Positions 12,572-19,127 of a DNA stretch of 22,104 nt are shown piece by piece. Made by a program: the position numbers and the translations under genes. How positions within the stretch are numbered: the first letter of the stretch is position 1; every line of letters begins with the position of its first letter. This DNA comes from a virus. The DNA is taken from positions 1 to 22,104 of IMG/VR virus record IMGVR_UViG_3300044678_003434; one strand, 5' to 3'. The notes beneath the pieces are model-generated. The model was not told where the DNA came from. It did no database searches and saw only the letters and a program-made list of their open reading frames with translations.

Positions 12572-13372
12572 ATGTTGAAGAAGAAGGACTTTGAGTTAAT
12601 TGCCGAGGCTTATGAGTTAGTTTGTTTAAATGAAAGAGTGTATCAGCTTTCTAACACTGAACAGGAAGATGTTCTTAAAGCTGTTAAAAACTATATGAAT
12701 ATTTTCGATCCAAAGAGGCTCAAAATGCCAATTGTAAAGATTATCTCACTAGGACCTGAAAAAGTATATGCAAAGTTTATCAACGATAAAGGATTTATTG
12801 CAGTGGGGAATATAAAGTTCCACGATGAAAGATTAGACGAAGAGAGGGAGTTACCTGTATATGTTGGTTTTGATAAAGAATCAAAGGACAAAGGTACATA
12901 CATATATCAGACAGATAAAGAAGGAAATAAGATAGCTGAATATATTCTTCTTCACTATTACAAGCTAAAGTATGATAGTGATGTTATTGAAGATGCTATT
13001 GTTCACGAGCTTTTCCATGCTAAACAACCTTATAAGTTCGTAGGTAAGCATTATGAAAGAAGTAAGCTTGATTATTACACTGATCCTGTAGAAGTTCATA
13101 ATTACGTTTCAAACATCGTTAAAACTATCGAGAACGCATATTTACAAAGCGAAGATCCTTCTAGTATTTTAAAGTTTCTTGAAGTTTTCGCTAGAGAAGG
13201 AAAGCTTCCTAACCTTCCTGAAAGCGACATTATTAAAAAGATAGGCAAAGATGAGTTTGTGAATTATCTGTATCATAATAGAAACAATCCAAAAGTAGCA
13301 AAAGAACACAAGAAACTTGTGTCAAAGCTCCACTGGTTGTATAATACCTTAAAAGATTACGAAAATAGATAA
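12572..13372 (+). CDS. Putative head-packaged HExxH metalloprotease with CTS-like N-terminus
   Basis: 266 residues. The N-terminus KKDFELIAEAYELV matches the T4 capsid targeting sequence (IPIII starts MKTYQEFIAEA), with a gp21-type cleavage site I-A-E/A after residue 12. A zinc protease motif H-E-L-F-H is at 145-149, within the helical context DAIVHELFHAKQ, and a plausible third ligand, E174, in YYTDPVEVHNYV. This is the gluzincin-like layout (HExxH, then a downstream Glu in a second helix) seen in many uncharacterised phage peptidases. The first 120 residues are mixed alpha/beta with a FIAVGNIKF strand; the C-terminus is helical and basic. Seen: the motifs. Inferred: packaging in the head and injection. 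Substrate unknown. First gene of a tandem set sharing the same N-terminus. Confidence 0.65.
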   Translation: MLKKKDFELIAEAYELVCLNERVYQLSNTEQEDVLKAVKNYMNIFDPKRLKMPIVKIISLGPEKVYAKFINDKGFIAVGNIKFHDERLDEERELPVYVGFDKESKDKGTYIYQTDKEGNKIAEYILLHYYKLKYDSDVIEDAIVHELFHAKQPYKFVGKHYERSKLDYYTDPVEVHNYVSNIVKTIENAYLQSEDPSSILKFLEVFAREGKLPNLPESDIIKKIGKDEFVNYLYHNRNNPKVAKEHKKLVSKLHWLYNTLKDYENR

Positions 13373-13381: not shown

Positions 13382-14248
13382 ATGATCAAAAAGAAGGACT
13401 ACGAACTCATTGCTGAAGCGTATGCTCGCATTGGAACCATTAACGAATGCTGGGAGAAGATGTCTGCTCCACAGAAGGCTAAAGTTGAAGAGATTCTCAA
13501 GAAAACAAATGGTTATAAGCTTGGGGATAATGCTTGGAATGATTCCAAAAAGACCGTAACTCTTACTAATGAACTTAACGGAAGTGAGACAGGCGGTGAG
13601 GTTGAAAGAGACATCGAAGTCGATGAAAAGGGAGAGCAAGTTGCTTACGTTCATAGCGGTCCTCACAACGAATCTATTGAATCTCAAGCAACCTTCGATC
13701 CTGACCAAAAGGCCCGTGAATTTATTGACATGGCTCGTAAGGATCCAACCAATCACAAAGCTCATGGAAGTTTAGCAGCCTGCTGGTATTGCAAGGGTGG
13801 CAAAGATGGAATTGTTCCTTCCAATCCTCATGTTACTGGGTCCCCTGCTGCAAAGGATTGGGCTGAAGGATTTAACGAAATCTTAAAAATGGATGACGAA
13901 GCTGGCAAGAAAGAAGTTCAAGCCGGCAAAGTCCACACAACACCTGCTGCCTCTGCTCCAGGACACAACGTTATAACAAACGCTGTCAAAGAATCCACTG
14001 AAGCTCTTGAAGAAAAGAAGATGGCTTGTGGCAAGGGTTGTGTATGTGAAGAGTGTCCCAAATGCATGCCTAAGAAAAAGACTCTTAAGAAGGCTCTCGA
14101 AGAAGCTTATGAAGCAGTTATCGAAGAAGCTAAGAAAAAGAAGCACGTCTTTACAAAAGTAGAAAAGGCTGCTGAAGAAGCTGGATATTCTAAGAAAGCT
14201 GCTGAAAAAATCGCTGGAGCAGCAAAAGCCAAAGCCACAAAGAAATAA
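13382..14248 (+). CDS. Putative internal head protein with CTS-like N-terminus, Cys cluster and basic tail
   Basis: 288 residues. The N-terminus KKDYELIAEAYARI carries the same CTS-like motif as its neighbours, with the I-A-E/A site after residue 12. The middle is hydrophilic and acidic, with a CWYC pair. Near residues 214-233 a dense Cys cluster (C216, C220, C222, C225, C228: CGKGCVCEECPKC) could bind metal. Directly after it, KKALEEAYEAVIEEA resembles a second copy of the targeting motif with further L-E-E/A and I-E-E/A sites. The last 40 residues are Lys/Ala-rich (SKKAAEKIAGAAKAKATKK), like DNA-binding histone H1-type tails. Likely a DNA-associated core or internal protein, cleaved during head maturation. 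No homologous family is recognised. Confidence 0.6.
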   Translation: MIKKKDYELIAEAYARIGTINECWEKMSAPQKAKVEEILKKTNGYKLGDNAWNDSKKTVTLTNELNGSETGGEVERDIEVDEKGEQVAYVHSGPHNESIESQATFDPDQKAREFIDMARKDPTNHKAHGSLAACWYCKGGKDGIVPSNPHVTGSPAAKDWAEGFNEILKMDDEAGKKEVQAGKVHTTPAASAPGHNVITNAVKESTEALEEKKMACGKGCVCEECPKCMPKKKTLKKALEEAYEAVIEEAKKKKHVFTKVEKAAEEAGYSKKAAEKIAGAAKAKATKK

Positions 14249-14253
14249 CATTT

Positions 14254-14592
14254 ATGAAAATAGACAAAGACTTAGATTTAATTGCTGAAGCTTATAAGAA
14301 AGTTCTTAACGAAGAAGAACGTCCTCCTGCTTTAGAAAGAGATGAAGAAACCTATGGAGAAGAAAAGCCCGAAGTAGGTATTAGCGACGAAGATGCAGCT
14401 CCTTATGAAGAGGCAAAAGAAGAACTTTTATACGTAGGAAATAAAATTGTTCATTGCTTGTATAATTCTCCTACAAACGCGTGTGAAGAGGCAGACGTTC
14501 AAGAAGATTCTAGTTCAGCAGAAAAGTGCATTATCCATGTTGTTTGTGAAGGTAAAGGATATACACTAACGCTCGAACAAGCTAAGTGGTAA
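14254..14592 (+). CDS. Putative small internal head protein with CTS-like N-terminus (112 residues)
   Basis: MKIDKDLDLIAEAYKKVL aligns without gaps to the two preceding genes over K-D-x-[DE]-L-I-A-E-A-Y (5-14), again with a possible prohead protease site after residue 12. A very acidic stretch follows (ERDEETYGEEKPEVGISDED). A compact C-terminal part contains four cysteines in pairs (VHCLYNSPTNACEE; CIIHVVCEGKGYTLTLEQ). It starts 5 nt after the preceding stop. The body shows no similarity to the neighbours, so only the leader is shared, as in T4 IPI, IPII and IPIII. Function unknown. Confidence 0.6.
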   Translation: MKIDKDLDLIAEAYKKVLNEEERPPALERDEETYGEEKPEVGISDEDAAPYEEAKEELLYVGNKIVHCLYNSPTNACEEADVQEDSSSAEKCIIHVVCEGKGYTLTLEQAKW

Positions 14593-14635
14593 TTCTAATA
14601 GCTTAAAAGCCAATCCTTTTACAGCAAAAAACGGT

Positions 14636-15010
14636 ATGGAATTCGACAGACTCTTCGAAAAGGTTATAGCAAACGAAACAGAAGCTGAGAAAGCTTTTGA
14701 TGAGTTTCTTGTAAAGAGAGCTGCAGGTGCTGCAAAACTTGCCAAAAGCGCCTATGAAAAAGGAGGATACAGTCTCTTAACAGCTATCCATTTTGCTGCA
14801 AAAGAAAAACCTTACGCTGAGTCTGAAAGATGGGCTGAGAAAGAGGGTAAGGAAGAACACTTCAAAGCCAAGGCTAAAGAAGTATACGAAAAGCTAAAAG
14901 ATTTAGATTCGATGTCACAAAGACAGTTTCAAGCTCTCATGGGTGAACTTGAAGTTTGGGGAGAAGTTTACATTAGAGCAATCAAGCCAAATAGCATTAA
15001 ACTCCCTTAG
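14636..15010 (+). CDS. Helical Ala/Lys-rich protein, possible virion component (124 residues)
   Basis: Begins MEFDRLFEKVIANETEAEKA. The N-terminus differs from the three genes before it but resembles the start of the 2620 gene product (F-D-x-[IL]-[YF]-E-x-[IV]). The rest is mostly helical, rich in Ala, Lys and Glu (AAGAAKLAKSAYEKGGYS; KEEHFKAKAKEVYEKLKDL), ending with a conserved-looking LEVWGEVYIRAIKPNSIKLP. No family is recognised. Its place at the end of the putative internal-protein cassette suggests a late, virion-related role, but this is only inference from position. Confidence 0.6.
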   Translation: MEFDRLFEKVIANETEAEKAFDEFLVKRAAGAAKLAKSAYEKGGYSLLTAIHFAAKEKPYAESERWAEKEGKEEHFKAKAKEVYEKLKDLDSMSQRQFQALMGELEVWGEVYIRAIKPNSIKLP

Positions 15011-15013
15011 TTG

Positions 15014-15042
15014 TTGACTTGTCCTTATATCCATACTAGGAT
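15014..15042 (+). promoter_or_regulatory. Possible sigma70-like promoter of the microgene chain
   Basis: TTGACT (15014-15019) and TAGGAT (15037-15042) are separated by 17 nt. The same segment forms a small hairpin, TATATCC/GGATATA (15026-15032 with 15039-15045). A transcript would begin just before the 15064 gene. Confidence 0.3.
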
Positions 15043-15063
15043 ATATGAATGCTAAACAAATAC

Positions 15064-15195
15064 ATGCTTGCTCGCGTATTAGTAAAATTCTTTTATAAAA
15101 AGAGTTACGCAAAAACGTTTCTTTTAGAAGACATTAACGACGAAGAGTATCGGGAGTATATTAGTAAATTTATGAATAGGACTTGGGACACATGA
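15064..15195 (+). CDS. Basic microprotein (43 residues)
   Basis: Reads MLARVLVKFFYKKSYAKTFL then EDINDEEYREYISKFMNRTW and ends at a TGA that overlaps the next ATG (ATGA). The first half is basic and aromatic, the second acidic and helical. No family is recognised. The overlap and the absence of any other sensible frame between 15010 and 15192 support it. Another ATG at 15045 opens only a 17-codon frame. Confidence 0.45.
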   Translation: MLARVLVKFFYKKSYAKTFLLEDINDEEYREYISKFMNRTWDT

Positions 15196-15473
15196 GAACA
15201 TACATGGCTCATAAATACAAACCGAAGGTTGTTTTCTCTTCCGGATTTGTTGTAGAACGTTGGACAGGAAAAGCATGGTATCCTTCTCTTTGTTCCCCAT
15301 ATAAAACAATGGCTGAAGTACGCAAACATTTATCAGACTATTGGTGGCATTACACCGATGAAAATTCATATCGCATCAAAGACTACAAACCAAAGGTCCA
15401 AAAGTATGTTCCAAAGTATAAAAAATCAAATTGGAACACAGATGATGAAATGGTAGTTTGCTATGGACAATAA
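15192..15473 (+). CDS. Hypothetical Tyr/Trp/Lys-rich protein (93 residues)
   Basis: Start at the ATG at 15192 in an ATGA overlap; an upstream in-frame TTG at 15183 is less likely. MRTYMAHKYKPKVVFSSGFV is followed by ERWTGKAWYPSLCSPYKTM, an antiparallel-sheet-like sequence, then HLSDYWWHYTD and a repetitive basic end (IKDYKPKVQKYVPKYKKSNW). Such WxGxxWxP-type small proteins are frequent in phages but unassigned. It overlaps the next gene by 11 nt. Confidence 0.55.
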   Translation: MRTYMAHKYKPKVVFSSGFVVERWTGKAWYPSLCSPYKTMAEVRKHLSDYWWHYTDENSYRIKDYKPKVQKYVPKYKKSNWNTDDEMVVCYGQ

Positions 15474-15636
15474 TTACGGCCAATTTGGGGAAGAAAGGGA
15501 AAGGTTTTTTTCGGACACGTACGCTCCCTTGGACACCCCTGCTGGTTGGAATAAGTGGTATCAAGAGTATAGAAGATATATTTTAAAACTTCCAAAAGAA
15601 CCTAAACCTAAATATAAAAAATTTACCAAACGATGA
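15463..15636 (+). CDS. Hypothetical 57-residue protein
   Basis: MDNNYGQFGEERERFFSDTY, then LDTPAGWNKWYQEYRRYIL and a Lys/Pro-rich end (LPKEPKPKYKKFTKR). It begins inside the preceding gene and ends in an ATGA overlap with the lipoprotein gene, which supports it as a coupled gene. It is aromatic and basic; no family is recognised. Confidence 0.5.
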   Translation: MDNNYGQFGEERERFFSDTYAPLDTPAGWNKWYQEYRRYILKLPKEPKPKYKKFTKR

Positions 15637-15872
15637 AAACACTACTAACAATGATTGCAGCGCTGGGACTAACCTCTTGTGCTTATTACCAAGATGGCTC
15701 AGCAAATAATTCAGTAAACATAACCCCTCAATATAACTACGGTGGTTACGGATATGGTTATGGGGGTTATGGATACGGAGGATATTATCCAGCATACGGA
15801 GGATATTATCCGGCTTATGGAGGATATTATGGTTGGGGCGGTGGATGGGGTTGGGGAAGATGTGGATGGTAG
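15633..15872 (+). CDS. Gly/Tyr-rich lipoprotein (79 residues)
   Basis: MKTLLTMIAALGLTSCAYYQ has a Lys, a hydrophobic core and the lipobox L-T-S-C, so signal peptidase II cleavage before C16 is predicted. The mature part begins with a short polar spacer (DGSANNSVNITPQ) and is then almost only Gly, Tyr, Trp and Pro, including three 7-residue units of the type GGYYPAY, ending GWGGGWGWGRCGW. It is probably lipid-anchored in the host envelope or outer membrane. In phages such proteins may serve superinfection exclusion or lysis. The sequence is also like small bacterial outer-membrane lipoproteins, so capture from a host is possible. Confidence 0.65.
   Translation: MKTLLTMIAALGLTSCAYYQDGSANNSVNITPQYNYGGYGYGYGGYGYGGYYPAYGGYYPAYGGYYGWGGGWGWGRCGW
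15777..15839 (+). repeat. Three 21-bp tandem repeats coding GGYYPAY
   Basis: Units start at 15777, 15798 and 15819 with GGAGGATATTATCC as the shared core; the third unit diverges after GGAGGATATTATGG. They code for the Gly/Tyr repeat of the lipoprotein and could expand or contract by slippage. Confidence 0.7.
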
Positions 15873-15876
15873 TAAT

Positions 15877-16218
15877 ATGAAAGAGTTTTTAAAGCAATTT
15901 TCAGGAGCAGCTATGGTGATATCTTTTATGCTTTGTTATCTTCCTCAAATTTATAAGATTATCAAAACTAAAAGTGCTTCAGATGTATCGGTGTTAATGA
16001 TCTTTCTTGGTATATCAGGATATGTGTTTGGACTAATTTATATGATGTCCACGTCTTTTGGAATTTGGTGGTTTTTAAATTATACTTCTGGGCTTGTCAC
16101 GTCCGCTTTTTTATTGTACTATTGGTACAGACATAAAGATGAAAAACCTAGACATAGAAAAAATTGGAACAGATTTAGTTATCGCTTACGAAAAGGCACA
16201 AGGTCGCGAACCTTTTAG
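15877..16218 (+). CDS. SemiSWEET/PQ-loop family membrane protein
   Basis: 113 residues from the ATG at 15877; the open frame extends upstream to 15742 only through the lipoprotein gene. Three hydrophobic helices: about 9-24, leading into the PQ motif (LCYLPQIYKIIKTKSASDVS, P23-Q24), about 36-56 (MIFLGISGYVFGLIYMM) and about 62-82 (WWFLNYTSGLVTSAFLLYYW). The proline of helix 1, the basic loop and the SxxxVS end of the loop match the bacterial SemiSWEET half-transporters (about 90 residues, dimeric, sugar uniport). The C-terminal 26 residues (basic, RHRKNWNRFSYRLRKG) lie entirely within the overlap with the downstream gene remnant, so they may be a run-on tail. Phage function is unknown; sugar or other small-solute flux in the infected cell is the direct inference. 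Confidence 0.75.
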   Translation: MKEFLKQFSGAAMVISFMLCYLPQIYKIIKTKSASDVSVLMIFLGISGYVFGLIYMMSTSFGIWWFLNYTSGLVTSAFLLYYWYRHKDEKPRHRKNWNRFSYRLRKGTRSRTF

Positions 16219-16285
16219 ACCAAAGTATAAAGGGTGTGGTTGGACAACGATTAATACGAATCGCTCTTGTTTCGATTATCAGTAG
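16139..16285 (+). pseudogene. Truncated 5' copy of the PD-(D/E)XK-like nuclease gene
   Basis: From the ATG at 16139 the first 35 residues (MKNLDIEKIGTDLVIAYEKA... ending KYKGCGW) align without gaps to the start of the intact gene at 16981 (MKNLDIERIGTEIVKQYEES...). Similarity stops abruptly after W35 (16243); 13 unrelated residues follow before a stop. The HNH gene on the other strand ends at 16251, 7 nt past the break. The lost part includes the presumed catalytic Asp and ExK. DNA identity is moderate (14 nt identical at TATAAAGGGTGTGG), so the two copies are old paralogues or came from different sources. Probably not a functional protein. Confidence 0.7.
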
Positions 16286-16868
16286 CCCATAAAGGCTGCA
16301 AATTTGAAATATGATTCATTAAATGAAGTTCTTCTTGTTTGAAGTCTGCTACAGGTCTAATGTGATCGATGTGCCAGCCGTGTGTTCCATGATTTTCCCA
16401 CGTCATACCTTCCTCAAACAAGCTCTCAATATGAGCCTTCGCTTTTTCCCAACTACATCCCAAAAGTACTAATGTGTTAGTAGGCTTTTTTTGTTTAATT
16501 CGTCTGAACGAACTATTAACACTTTGGCGCAATTTTGTTTTAGCCGCAAATAAAGGATCTTCTTTTAACTTCCTCTTACGCCATGCTAAATTTGATCGAT
16601 TATTAGAATCTCTATAACGAGCATAAAGTTCTTTATTCTTTTTGTTCAATTCTTCTTTAGGCGTGTTTTTTCTTTTTTCCTTACGTCTTTCGTAGACACT
16701 TTCTTTATTCTTTTTGTACCAGTCTGCATTAGCTTTATTCGAACGCTCTTTGTTTTTCTCGTGCCAAGCAGAGCTCCACTCATTGTGCCTTTCTTTGTTT
16801 GCTAGGCGCCATTTTTTGTTATATTCTTTTCGTGAAAACGTAGTTTGATTATTGTTATTCATAGACAT
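16251..16868 (-). CDS. HNH endonuclease, homing-type candidate
   Basis: 205 residues from the ATG at 16868 (203 from the ATG at 16862). A long, very basic N-terminal part with repeated K-x-R/N-K-E units (RLANKERHNEWSS; WYKKNKESVYERRKEKRK) probably contacts DNA. The C-terminal nuclease domain has GWHIDHIRPVADF, then LMNHISNLQPLWATDNRNKSD, giving the H-D-H...N...N metal finger of HNH enzymes. Free-standing HNH genes of this build are common in T4-like phages, where they act as homing endonucleases. It is oriented against its neighbours, abuts the truncated nuclease gene and has its own late promoter octamer 3 nt (or 9 nt) before the start. Confidence 0.9.
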   Translation of the reverse strand: MSMNNNNQTTFSRKEYNKKWRLANKERHNEWSSAWHEKNKERSNKANADWYKKNKESVYERRKEKRKNTPKEELNKKNKELYARYRDSNNRSNLAWRKRKLKEDPLFAAKTKLRQSVNSSFRRIKQKKPTNTLVLLGCSWEKAKAHIESLFEEGMTWENHGTHGWHIDHIRPVADFKQEELHLMNHISNLQPLWATDNRNKSDSY

Positions 16869-16913
16869 AAATATTTATGCTCTAGGAGCTCAAAATTTAG
16901 TTATTCATAGACA
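16854..16913 (+). repeat. 14-bp direct repeat flanking the HNH promoter
   Basis: GTTATTCATAGACA occurs at 16854-16867 (start of the HNH gene) and again at 16900-16913, 46 bp apart, inside the loop of the terminator-like hairpin. It probably reflects a local duplication when the HNH unit arrived. Confidence 0.6.
16872..16879 (-). promoter_or_regulatory. Late promoter octamer of the HNH gene
   Basis: The minus strand reads CATAAATA (16879-16872), an exact NATAAATA match, followed by TTT and then two in-frame ATGs (16868 and 16862). It is part of a 14-bp palindrome CATAAATATTTATG (16866-16879). T4-like geometry puts the start of transcription near 16866, favouring use of the second ATG or a leaderless start. 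Confidence 0.5.
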
Positions 16914-16942
16914 GAATACTGTTGAGCTCTTAGAGTTTTTTT
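16881..16942 (+). terminator. Hairpin with T-run, probable terminator
   Basis: TCTAGGAGCTCAA (16881-16893) pairs with TTGAGCTCTTAGA (16922-16934) over 13 bp with a single G-T wobble. After one G there are seven Ts (16936-16942). The 28-nt loop is longer than usual. It would stop plus-strand transcription coming from the SemiSWEET region before the intact nuclease gene. Confidence 0.5.
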
Positions 16943-16980
16943 GTTGCAAGGTTTAGACTTTGTGTTATTATTTCTTTGGG

Positions 16981-17352
16981 ATGAAAAATTTAGACATTGA
17001 ACGTATAGGAACCGAAATAGTAAAACAATATGAGGAATCTCAAGGAAGATTTCCGTTTCGCCAGAAATATAAAGGGTGTGGGTGGGATTTGAATTTTGGA
17101 AACAACAAAGAGACTCGTTATATCGAAATTAAAACAACTAGGTCCAAGAAGTTGACTGGCCGTTGGTTGGAAAAAGCTGGTTACAACCAACTACGAATTA
17201 ATCCAGACTTCTATGTTTATGGTGTAACGGATATCAAAGACGATGGAACAGGTACGTTGACGATTTATACCGCTGCTGACATAACAATCGAAGAAGACAT
17301 CAAATACGTTTTAAAATTTAAAAATAGTAGAATAACCGAAAATAAACTATAA
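16981..17352 (+). CDS. Small PD-(D/E)XK-like nuclease (DUF3883-like)
   Basis: 123 residues from the ATG at 16981 (MKNLDIERIGTEIVKQYEES); the open frame starts at 16960 but the shorter start matches the truncated copy at 16139. The layout fits the restriction-endonuclease fold: a helix, then GCGWDLNF with the Asp, RYIEIKTT with ExK, an LTGRWLEKAGYNQLRIN helix segment and a final strand DFYVYGVTDI. This G-x-D...ExK...(Y/L)-x-(V/L)Y-x-V pattern is shared with DUF3883 and Mrr-type domains. Single-domain nucleases of this type could degrade host or rival DNA or act in recombination; no direct evidence. A hairpin terminator lies upstream, so it may have its own transcript. Confidence 0.6.
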   Translation: MKNLDIERIGTEIVKQYEESQGRFPFRQKYKGCGWDLNFGNNKETRYIEIKTTRSKKLTGRWLEKAGYNQLRINPDFYVYGVTDIKDDGTGTLTIYTAADITIEEDIKYVLKFKNSRITENKL

Positions 17353-17363
17353 AATATTAATAC

Positions 17364-18302
17364 ATGGACAAATACGTTATTTTTCATATTGATGGTGGCT
17401 GTGGCAAGAACATTGTTGCTACCTCTGTTATTAAGTCAATTAAAGCTTCTCACCCTGATCGTAAGCTGATTGTTGTGACAGCTTATCCGGAAGTCTTTAT
17501 TCACAACCCAAACATTCATAGAGTATATAAGTTCGGCAATATTCCTTATTTCTATGATGATTATATTGATAAGAAGGATTCTATAGTTTTGAGAATGGAA
17601 CCTTATCATTCTGGAGATCTTTTATATAAACGTAAATCATTGGCAGAGATTTGGTGTGATGTTCTCAATATTCCATGTATTGATAAGGAACCGGAGATAT
17701 TTCTAACCGAACGAGAGTTAATCTTCGCTAAAAATAAGCTACAGAAAGAAGGTCCAATTCTTGTAGTTCAGTCATCAGGTGGAGCTGAACAACAAGGACA
17801 TCCTTATTCATGGTCTCGAGATCTACCACCTACATTTGCTCAAGATGTTGTAAATGAAGTTAAAGATAATTTTAATAAGGTTCTTCATATTCGTAGAGAT
17901 AACCAGCCAGCTATTGAAGGAACAACTCAGGTATCAGATAATTTTAGAAATTTATTTTGCTATATTGCTCTCTCTGATAAGTTCCTCACTATTGATTCGT
18001 TTATGCAACATGCATGTGCTGCATTTAAGAAGAAAGCTACTGTAGGTTGGATTTCTAATTCTCCAGTTGTCTTTGGACATAAATTACATGACAATATTCA
18101 AGCAACAGGTGTTGAGTCGTTTAGACATAGAATTGATAGCTATCTAGAATCAGATGATTGGACTGGTGGTAGATTTCATGAATGCCCATACGATAATATT
18201 CAAGACATGTTCAATAAGGAGCAATTTGTAGAATCTATTTTAGGTACTAAAGGCGGAGATAATTTATTTGAAATCGCTAAGCAGCCAATTATTACATTTT
18301 AA
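17364..18302 (+). CDS. GT9-like glycosyltransferase (heptosyltransferase fold)
   Basis: 312 residues, with the GT-B architecture of the ADP-heptose:LPS heptosyltransferase family. N-terminal Rossmann half: VIFHIDGGCGKNIVATSVI (5-23), then PDRKLIVVTAYPEVF (31-45) and the NPNIHRVY segment. The C-terminal half starts around PILVVQSSGG (131-140), and the donor-site part reads FCYIALSDKFLTIDSFMQHA (198-217) followed by KKKATVGWIS, the usual GT9 pattern of a conserved Ser/Asp-hxHxAAA region and G-x-(S/T). The family transfers sugars in the cytoplasm, typically heptose to LPS core. Here it could alter host surface glycans or decorate a phage protein. The next gene begins immediately after its stop codon. 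Confidence 0.65.
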   Translation: MDKYVIFHIDGGCGKNIVATSVIKSIKASHPDRKLIVVTAYPEVFIHNPNIHRVYKFGNIPYFYDDYIDKKDSIVLRMEPYHSGDLLYKRKSLAEIWCDVLNIPCIDKEPEIFLTERELIFAKNKLQKEGPILVVQSSGGAEQQGHPYSWSRDLPPTFAQDVVNEVKDNFNKVLHIRRDNQPAIEGTTQVSDNFRNLFCYIALSDKFLTIDSFMQHACAAFKKKATVGWISNSPVVFGHKLHDNIQATGVESFRHRIDSYLESDDWTGGRFHECPYDNIQDMFNKEQFVESILGTKGGDNLFEIAKQPIITF

Positions 18303-19127
18303 ATGAAAAATATCTTTTTTAATTCATCAATGCCAAGAAGTATGAGTACACTTATGCAGTGTATTCTTAATCAGAATCCAGAAATTCATGCTACTCAAAC
18401 TGATCCAGTTCTAGAGTATCTTTATGGTGCTAGAATGAACTTTACTAATACCCCAGAGGTTAAAGCTATGGATTCGGATTTAGCTTTGAAGACTTGGAGA
18501 GGCTTTTGTCTTGGTGGGTTAAAGGGGTATGCAGATACCTATACAGATAAACCTAGTCTCTGTATTAAGACTAGAGGTGGAACAATTCATTATAAGTGGT
18601 TTGAATCATTTATGCCTTATAAGCCAAAGATGATTTGTATGGTAAGAAACCTTAAGAGTGTCTTTTCATCGATGGAAAAACTCTATAGAGCAAATCAAGA
18701 ACATCATCAAGAGATTCAAAACCATGCTGAAATGAAAGGAACGAGTACAGCTAAGAGAATTGATTCCTGGGTTGCTGGTCCTCCTGTTGGTTTAGCTTTA
18801 GAGAGATTGCAGCAATGCTTTCTTGAAGGGATTAATAAGGATATCCTCTATATTAGAGCAGAGGATCTATCTAGCTATCCAGATAGAGAAATGAATAAGG
18901 TTTATGATTATCTAGGACTAGAGCCATTTAAGCATGACTTTGATAATGTTGAACAGACAATTAAAGAAGATGATTCTGTCTATGGTTTAACTAATGATCT
19001 TCATACTATCAAAAGAAAGGTTCAACCTTTAACTCCTGATTATAATACAATTTTAGGAAAGCAAATTTGTGATTGGATTGATAACCAATTTGCTTGGTAC
19101 CAGCAAGGATTTGGTTATACGAAGTAA
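18303..19127 (+). CDS. Sulfotransferase family protein
   Basis: 274 residues. The 5'-phosphosulfate loop is PRSMSTL (11-17), directly after the first strand (NIFFNSS), and the 3'-phosphate site is VRNLKSVFSS (114-123), with R115 and S123 spaced as in the family (R-x7-S). The C-terminal half has ILYIRAEDLSSYPDREMNKV, a typical late strand-helix. It should transfer sulfate from PAPS to a hydroxyl or amine of a glycan or small molecule. Such genes occur in marine and freshwater T4-like phages beside sugar-modifying genes. Coupling to the GT9-like gene (no spacer) suggests that the two act on the same glycan. The acceptor cannot be inferred. Confidence 0.8.
   Translation: MKNIFFNSSMPRSMSTLMQCILNQNPEIHATQTDPVLEYLYGARMNFTNTPEVKAMDSDLALKTWRGFCLGGLKGYADTYTDKPSLCIKTRGGTIHYKWFESFMPYKPKMICMVRNLKSVFSSMEKLYRANQEHHQEIQNHAEMKGTSTAKRIDSWVAGPPVGLALERLQQCFLEGINKDILYIRAEDLSSYPDREMNKVYDYLGLEPFKHDFDNVEQTIKEDDSVYGLTNDLHTIKRKVQPLTPDYNTILGKQICDWIDNQFAWYQQGFGYTK

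Follow-up and report, generated by a model that had tools for sequence, protein, structure and literature searches.

A probable internal head protein of a T4-superfamily phage, read as a fusion of leader-tagged modules with a second, internal leader

The protein P0001, encoded on a 22,104-base stretch of viral DNA (a single IMG/VR record, here called the window), is probably an internal head protein, or cargo, of a T4-superfamily phage that arose as a fusion of leader-tagged modules and would be cut by an S77 protease. Its start belongs to a family of leaders, a second copy of the leader lies within the protein, its modules recur in other leader proteins, and the protease is encoded in sister contigs. 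Re-reading the open reading frame (13382-14248, plus strand) returned the 288-residue translation as first described, and the leader, the five-Cys cluster, the second leader-like segment and the basic tail which a first-pass annotation had read from it were all borne out. The features of P0001 and of the genes around it are as follows.

12572..13372, plus strand: upstream leader protein MLKKKDFELIAEAYELV..., 266 aa, with HELFHA (HExxH), a predicted metallopeptidase-like cargo
13382..13447, plus strand: N-terminal capsid-targeting-like leader MIKKKDYELIAE↓AYARIGTINE of P0001, residues 1-22, with a predicted protease cut (↓) after E12
13694..13897, plus strand: body module HxAxGxLAxxxY...NPH...AxxWxxGF, residues 105-172, with similarity to L045 and L014
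14027..14065, plus strand: five-Cys cluster CGKGCVCEECPKC, residues 216-228, a probable metal-binding mini-module by its Cys spacing
14066..14131, plus strand: internal second leader MPKKKTLKKALEE↓AYEAVIEE↓A, residues 229-250, with predicted cuts after E241 and E249
14129..14245, plus strand: basic Lys/Ala-rich two-helix tail module, residues 250-288, recurrent by HMM
14254..14592, plus strand: downstream leader protein MKIDKDLDLIAEAYKKVLNEE..., with homologues in L014
14636..15010, plus strand: next gene, with an F-type leader MEFDRLFEKVIANE; in L059 this body is joined to a KD/AEAY-type leader

The net charge of the whole protein is only +1, residues 13-211 being mildly acidic (-10), and further Cys residues outside the cluster occupy positions 23, 134 and 137. 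P0001 gave no Pfam match over the cut-off and none in PHROGs or in 50,697 phage records, and its profile found no match in the PDB. A direct search against viral contigs returned no match either, the relatives being reached only via the leader pattern, and an alignment scan of genome contigs found no relative of P0001. A PADLOC run gave no hit, and AlphaFold models were of low confidence, with mean pLDDT values of 42 and 54.

The leader family and its phage group

The start of P0001 contains KDYELIAE↓AYARI, in which IAE12↓A13 forms an L/I-x-E↓A prohead-protease site, and the family to which it belongs has the consensus M..KDxxL[LI]xEAYxx[VI]. Scanning viral contigs with the degenerate pattern KDxxL[x][A/E/G]EAYxx[V/I/M], we obtained 94 distinct ORFs, and in 92 of them the motif lay within 8 residues of Met. 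Because the pattern did not require an N-terminal position, this placement is informative; the E-A-Y was demanded by it, so that the invariance of E↓A across the 92 leaders is partly built in and not informative. After trimming of the leaders, 91 bodies fell into 67 unrelated families. Moreover, one body was found with swapped leaders: the window gene at 14636 and L014 8499 begin with M[ED]FDRLFEKVI and L059 3464 begins with MDKELQYLAEAYSSI, at 75% body identity. The many body families together with the leader swap are what an exchangeable targeting leader would be expected to show. The N-terminal targeting-like motif reported by the first-pass annotation is supported: it is a genuine N-terminal signal, exchangeable between proteins, in a T4-superfamily phage group that has an S77 prohead protease. 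A search of annotated phage records with the leader peptide gave no match, the 31-aa query having little power.

As many as nine leader matches lie within one 66-kb contig. Among the carriers are a NUDIX protein (L047 5418-6641, NUDIX match at E 6.5e-19) and a DUF2201 putative metallopeptidase (L123 8487-9506, E 2.2e-23), which suggests the presence of enzymes in heads. Some related leaders lack the cut site (LLEKAY in G001 52530, TLSGLY in L029), indicating that targeting and cutting may be separable.

The assignment to the phage group comes from the contig L014, which was found by the leader pattern D[YF]ELIAEAY and is part of the 125-kb record G001. Eight window genes, from 13382 to 19127, match G001 at 32-87% identity. 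Among the genes of G001 are those for a T4-type gp23, with about 33% identity to that of cyanophages, and for a gp21-type S77 prohead protease, the latter at about 29.1-29.8 kb. The presence of both in a syntenic record places the phage group in the T4 superfamily, uncultivated as far as records show. The window itself, a 22-kb contig, contains no S77 protease gene; of the 26 related fragments examined besides it, 8 encode one, namely G001, G004 and six other contigs with leader genes. At 17364-19127 on the plus strand, the window also carries adjacent genes that were judged by eye to resemble those of a glycosyltransferase and a sulfotransferase; their L014 counterparts are about 85% identical, and the pair is a candidate for surface modification.

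L014 encodes the only full-length homologue of P0001 that was found (38% over 194 aa). It keeps the second leader and the Cys cluster in the opposite order and is devoid of the Lys/Ala tail. The earlier expectation that homologues would retain the cluster and the second motif applied to this protein and failed for relatives of single modules: L045 comprises only the body with a leader-like start of its own, and L226 has the Cys module and the tail but no second leader. Such relatives, together with the reordered L014 protein, favour a fusion of modules over a single fixed design.

The internal leader copy and the predicted cut sites

The second leader-like segment of P0001 spans residues 233-250 (ALEE↓AYEAVIEE↓A) and begins from Met229 if taken as 229-250. 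We scored it with a PSSM derived from 86 leaders, those of the window and L014 being held out, and against shuffles of window residues 31-288. The internal copy of the window reached 12.0 bits (shuffle p 5e-5) and that of L014, NSLLSEAYFKVISEASEK, reached 13.9 bits, a value attained in 0 of 20,000 shuffles, while no other leader protein of the set scored above -3.8 internally. The second targeting-like motif postulated earlier is thus confirmed, and it is kept in the closest homologue.

Strict [LI]-x-E-[AGS] sites occur in P0001 at exactly E12, E241 and E249 (3 vs. 0.70 expected by composition, P=0.03), which are the three cut sites named beforehand and match the T4 cutting rule; the L014 homologue has them at E12, E220 and E228 (P=0.014). 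The full [LI]xE↓A consensus is present at both sites of the internal copy in the window as well as in L014. For comparison with the internal leader, the start of the L068 protein, MRSKDQILLEEAYGQILEEAKKK, shows a nearly equal junction between leader and AKKK: 12 of 16 positions are equal in the leader-AKKK stretch between MRSKDQILLEE↓AYGQILEE↓AKKKVNPWA of L068 and ALEE↓AYEAVIEE↓AKKKKHVF of the window. The combination [LI]xE↓AKKK is also found ahead of unrelated basic modules, namely the NPWA type (L068/L126) and the AQKK type (L115). Because both sites are kept and this combination recurs before unrelated basic modules, internal cutting at E241 and E249 appears likely.

Further internal leaders were detected in L029 7111 and L262 409, where SKDQDMLAEAYxVx is followed by a Cys module and then by [LI]xE↓AKK, and in L115 3544. 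In L045 and L059, the body that makes up the C-terminal ~120 residues of the last protein is a protein of its own, headed by an N-terminal leader; in L115 3544, another leader-plus-basic module precedes this body. This arrangement shows the fusion step by which internal leaders arise. In P0001, residues 229-250 probably headed the product of an independent gene for a leader and a basic tail before that gene was fused on downstream, since Met229 still opens the segment. Met214 and Met229 are candidate internal starts; the true gene starts that were read also had weak-looking ribosome-binding sites.

We propose that the first ~12-20 residues of P0001 would serve as a capsid-targeting leader, docking the protein in the prohead core, where the S77 (gp21-type) prohead protease would remove the leader after E12. 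The remainder would be a mosaic of a body domain, a Cys-rich and probably metal-binding module and the basic two-helix tail. Cuts at E241 and E249 are probable too, because the L/I-x-E↓A sites are kept, and would free the basic tail peptide from the body-plus-Cys part in the maturing head. The cleavage products would be packaged and probably ejected together with the DNA.

Modules of P0001 and neighbouring leader genes

The body of P0001 is 40% identical over 55 aa (E 2e-7) to the product of L045 1599-1862, a stand-alone protein of ~84 aa with its own leader-like start. Its NP..W..GF pattern had suggested a likeness to ribosome modulation factor (RMF), which was discarded after finding no Pfam match and only noise in the PDB.

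The five-Cys cluster claimed earlier is present at residues 216-228 (C216GKGCVCEECPKC228) with the spacing C216-x3-C220-x-C222-x2-C225-x2-C228. Its first loop is shorter than in the common C-x6-CxCxGCxxC module, which was found in about 20 proteins, and against a general Cys-module HMM the window cluster was not significant relative to Cys-preserving shuffles. A short-loop twin, CGKGCTCGECEKC, occurs in the leader protein L296 6636-7193 (43% over 49 aa, E 4e-4). Scanning for the long-loop Cys pattern yielded about 18 genuine proteins, most of them with KD-type or F-type leaders: a leader PSSM score of at least 4 was reached by 8 of 18 Cys-pattern proteins vs. 2 of the 482 remaining ORFs of these loci, and these two exceptions are the leader genes beside the L226 protein. 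Searching Pfam with the C-terminal 75 residues alone, as had been proposed, gave only noise and no metallothionein or zinc-binding family, and no published phage metallothionein was found in the literature searched. Judging from its Cys spacing, the cluster probably binds metal.

The Lys/Ala-rich tail at residues 250-288 carries a charge of +9 and was confirmed as a recurrent module. It is 84% identical over 37 aa to L296 6251-6361 (gene L296 6008), an HMM of the tail matched L226, L296, L293, L307, L272 and L317 at E values of about 2e-7 or better, and it also occurs within four proteins of another type with MSKQNDF-like starts. In L226 (6378), a Cys module is followed by a near-identical tail in one gene without an internal leader, and in L296 the Cys module (6636) and the tail (6008) reside in neighbouring leader genes. 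A low-confidence model predicts tail helices at 254-266 and 271-287, and together with the charge these would be consistent with DNA binding. The 'histone-like' character assigned to the tail did not hold beyond composition: we rejected membership in a histone or nucleoid-protein family, finding no Pfam match and a likeness of composition and two predicted helices only. The earlier reading as a whole is partly supported: the leader, its second copy, the cut-site matches and the separate modules bear it out, cleavage, metal binding and DNA binding are predictions, and the histone likeness is one of composition.

The genes flanking P0001, at 12572 and 14254, begin with the same kind of leader. 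The protein encoded at 12572-13372 contains DYYTDPVEVHNY downstream of HELFHA and is 35% identical over 262 aa to L115 8039-8806, which matched the DUF2268 predicted Zn protease at an E value of 0.0014, below the cut-off. It is possibly a head-packaged metallopeptidase. Elsewhere, F-type leaders occur on a small high-potential iron-sulfur-like protein (L059 4307-4537 and L045 945-1214, C..C..PP..C..GWC.W); the Pfam HIPIP match of the L059 copy (E 0.001) was just below the cut-off. A zinc-knuckle-like CX2CX3HX4C pattern, C..CGGDH....C, ends the leader proteins L045 570-938, L059 4954-5310 and L115 3544-4059. Another C-terminal basic module, AKKKVNPWAIEKSIEKKTGKKF..., recurs on leader proteins of L041, L048, L055, L066, L068, L073, L075, L091 and L126, always with an [LI]xE↓A site ahead and with a varied sequence in L048 and L073.

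Alternative readings and relation to known head proteins

In the most far-reaching form of the proposal, P0001 would be a true head polyprotein whose body, Cys peptide (loaded with metal) and basic peptide are split apart by the prohead protease, all kept in the head and ejected, and such precursors would have been made repeatedly by fusion of cargo genes; we hold this form only tentatively. The opposite view, that only the N-terminal leader targets and is cut and that the internal one is a fusion relic or an avidity helix in a mature protein left whole, agrees with the leader helices without an E↓A site in G001 and L029 and with the union of Cys module and tail in L226. We regard it as unlikely, given the full [LI]xE↓A consensus at the internal sites of both the window and L014 and the recurrence of [LI]xE↓AKKK before unrelated basic modules. 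Long propeptides are known from the giant phage SPN3US, where 111-254 residues are removed by multiple cuts (PMC10052503), and by this precedent everything up to E241/E249 might be a disposable, scaffold-like propeptide, leaving only the basic tail, or nothing, in the head. This is highly improbable, as the body and the Cys module are both kept elsewhere as short proteins of their own (L045, L059 3188, L115 1547), which argues for cargo.

The shared N-terminus might also be another exchangeable signal, such as a chaperone-docking or a translation/regulatory leader, with P0001 acting in the infected cell. The tie of the KDxxLLEEAY family to virions rests on sequence, and some carriers are enzymes (the NUDIX and DUF2201 proteins); however, a protease site lies within the leader, an S77 protease is present, the analogy to the leaders of T4 internal proteins (IPs) is strong, and T4 Alt, which is packaged in the head, is likewise processed by gp21 (PMC9026906). 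We therefore consider such a signal very unlikely. A chance origin of the second motif and the Cys cluster in a Lys/Glu/Ala-rich C-terminus is strongly disfavoured: the composition is of low complexity and the cluster alone was not significant by HMM, but the shuffle result, the conservation in L014 and the near-identical module pairs in L226, L296 and L068 speak against it.

The proposed cargo role can be compared with known systems. In T4, ten residues of the IPIII leader are enough, gp21 cleaves behind L/I-x-E and divides core proteins into several fragments, and T4-like phages are thought to package varied proteins by means of the leader (PMC9026906). Like T4 IPI, IPII, IPIII and Alt, the P0001 group combines a short leader and a [hydrophobic]-I-A-E↓A site with unrelated bodies (IPIII MKTYQEFIAE↓A, P0001 KDYELIAE↓A; the IPIII start MKTYQEFIAEA was confirmed in T4 records), and an S77 prohead protease and a T4-type gp23 are present, here in the sister contig. 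In contrast to these proteins, P0001 has the KDxxL[LI]xEAYxx[VI] leader, no homology of the body, an internal second leader, a Cys module and a basic tail, and many leader genes occur per genome in its phage group. Because body homology to the named T4 head proteins (IPs, Alt, gp22, gp67 and gp68) was absent in the 50,697 phage records and PHROGs, we class P0001 as working like an IP, outside those protein families. T4 gp22, gp67 and gp68 resemble the proposal for P0001 in being internal to the head and cut at several L/I-x-E sites, but they are scaffold that is mostly removed, whereas the P0001 fragments would equal cargo modules which exist separately. The ejection boluses of phiKZ/SPN3US-like phages similarly involve many head proteins with protease-cut N-terminal propeptides, but these are long, the cut sites in phiKZ are S/A-x-E, and the lineage is diverged. 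The nearest relatives in design (L226 6378, L296 6636 and 6008, L068 599, L084 3741, L029 7111 and L262 409) share the leader, the Cys module, E↓AKKK and/or the tail, each in another subset and order, and none has the exact combination of P0001. Capsid targeting of the T4 type is established, and the double-leader mosaic adds a new variant to it.

If the proposed reading is true, head cargo in a large uncultivated group of T4-like phages can be recognised directly from sequence by a short, readable leader, and this cargo covers dozens of families, among them a NUDIX protein, putative metallopeptidases and Cys modules. The concrete prediction for P0001 is cutting at E12, E241 and E249, and the head cargo of this group would evolve via shuffling and fusion of leader-tagged modules.
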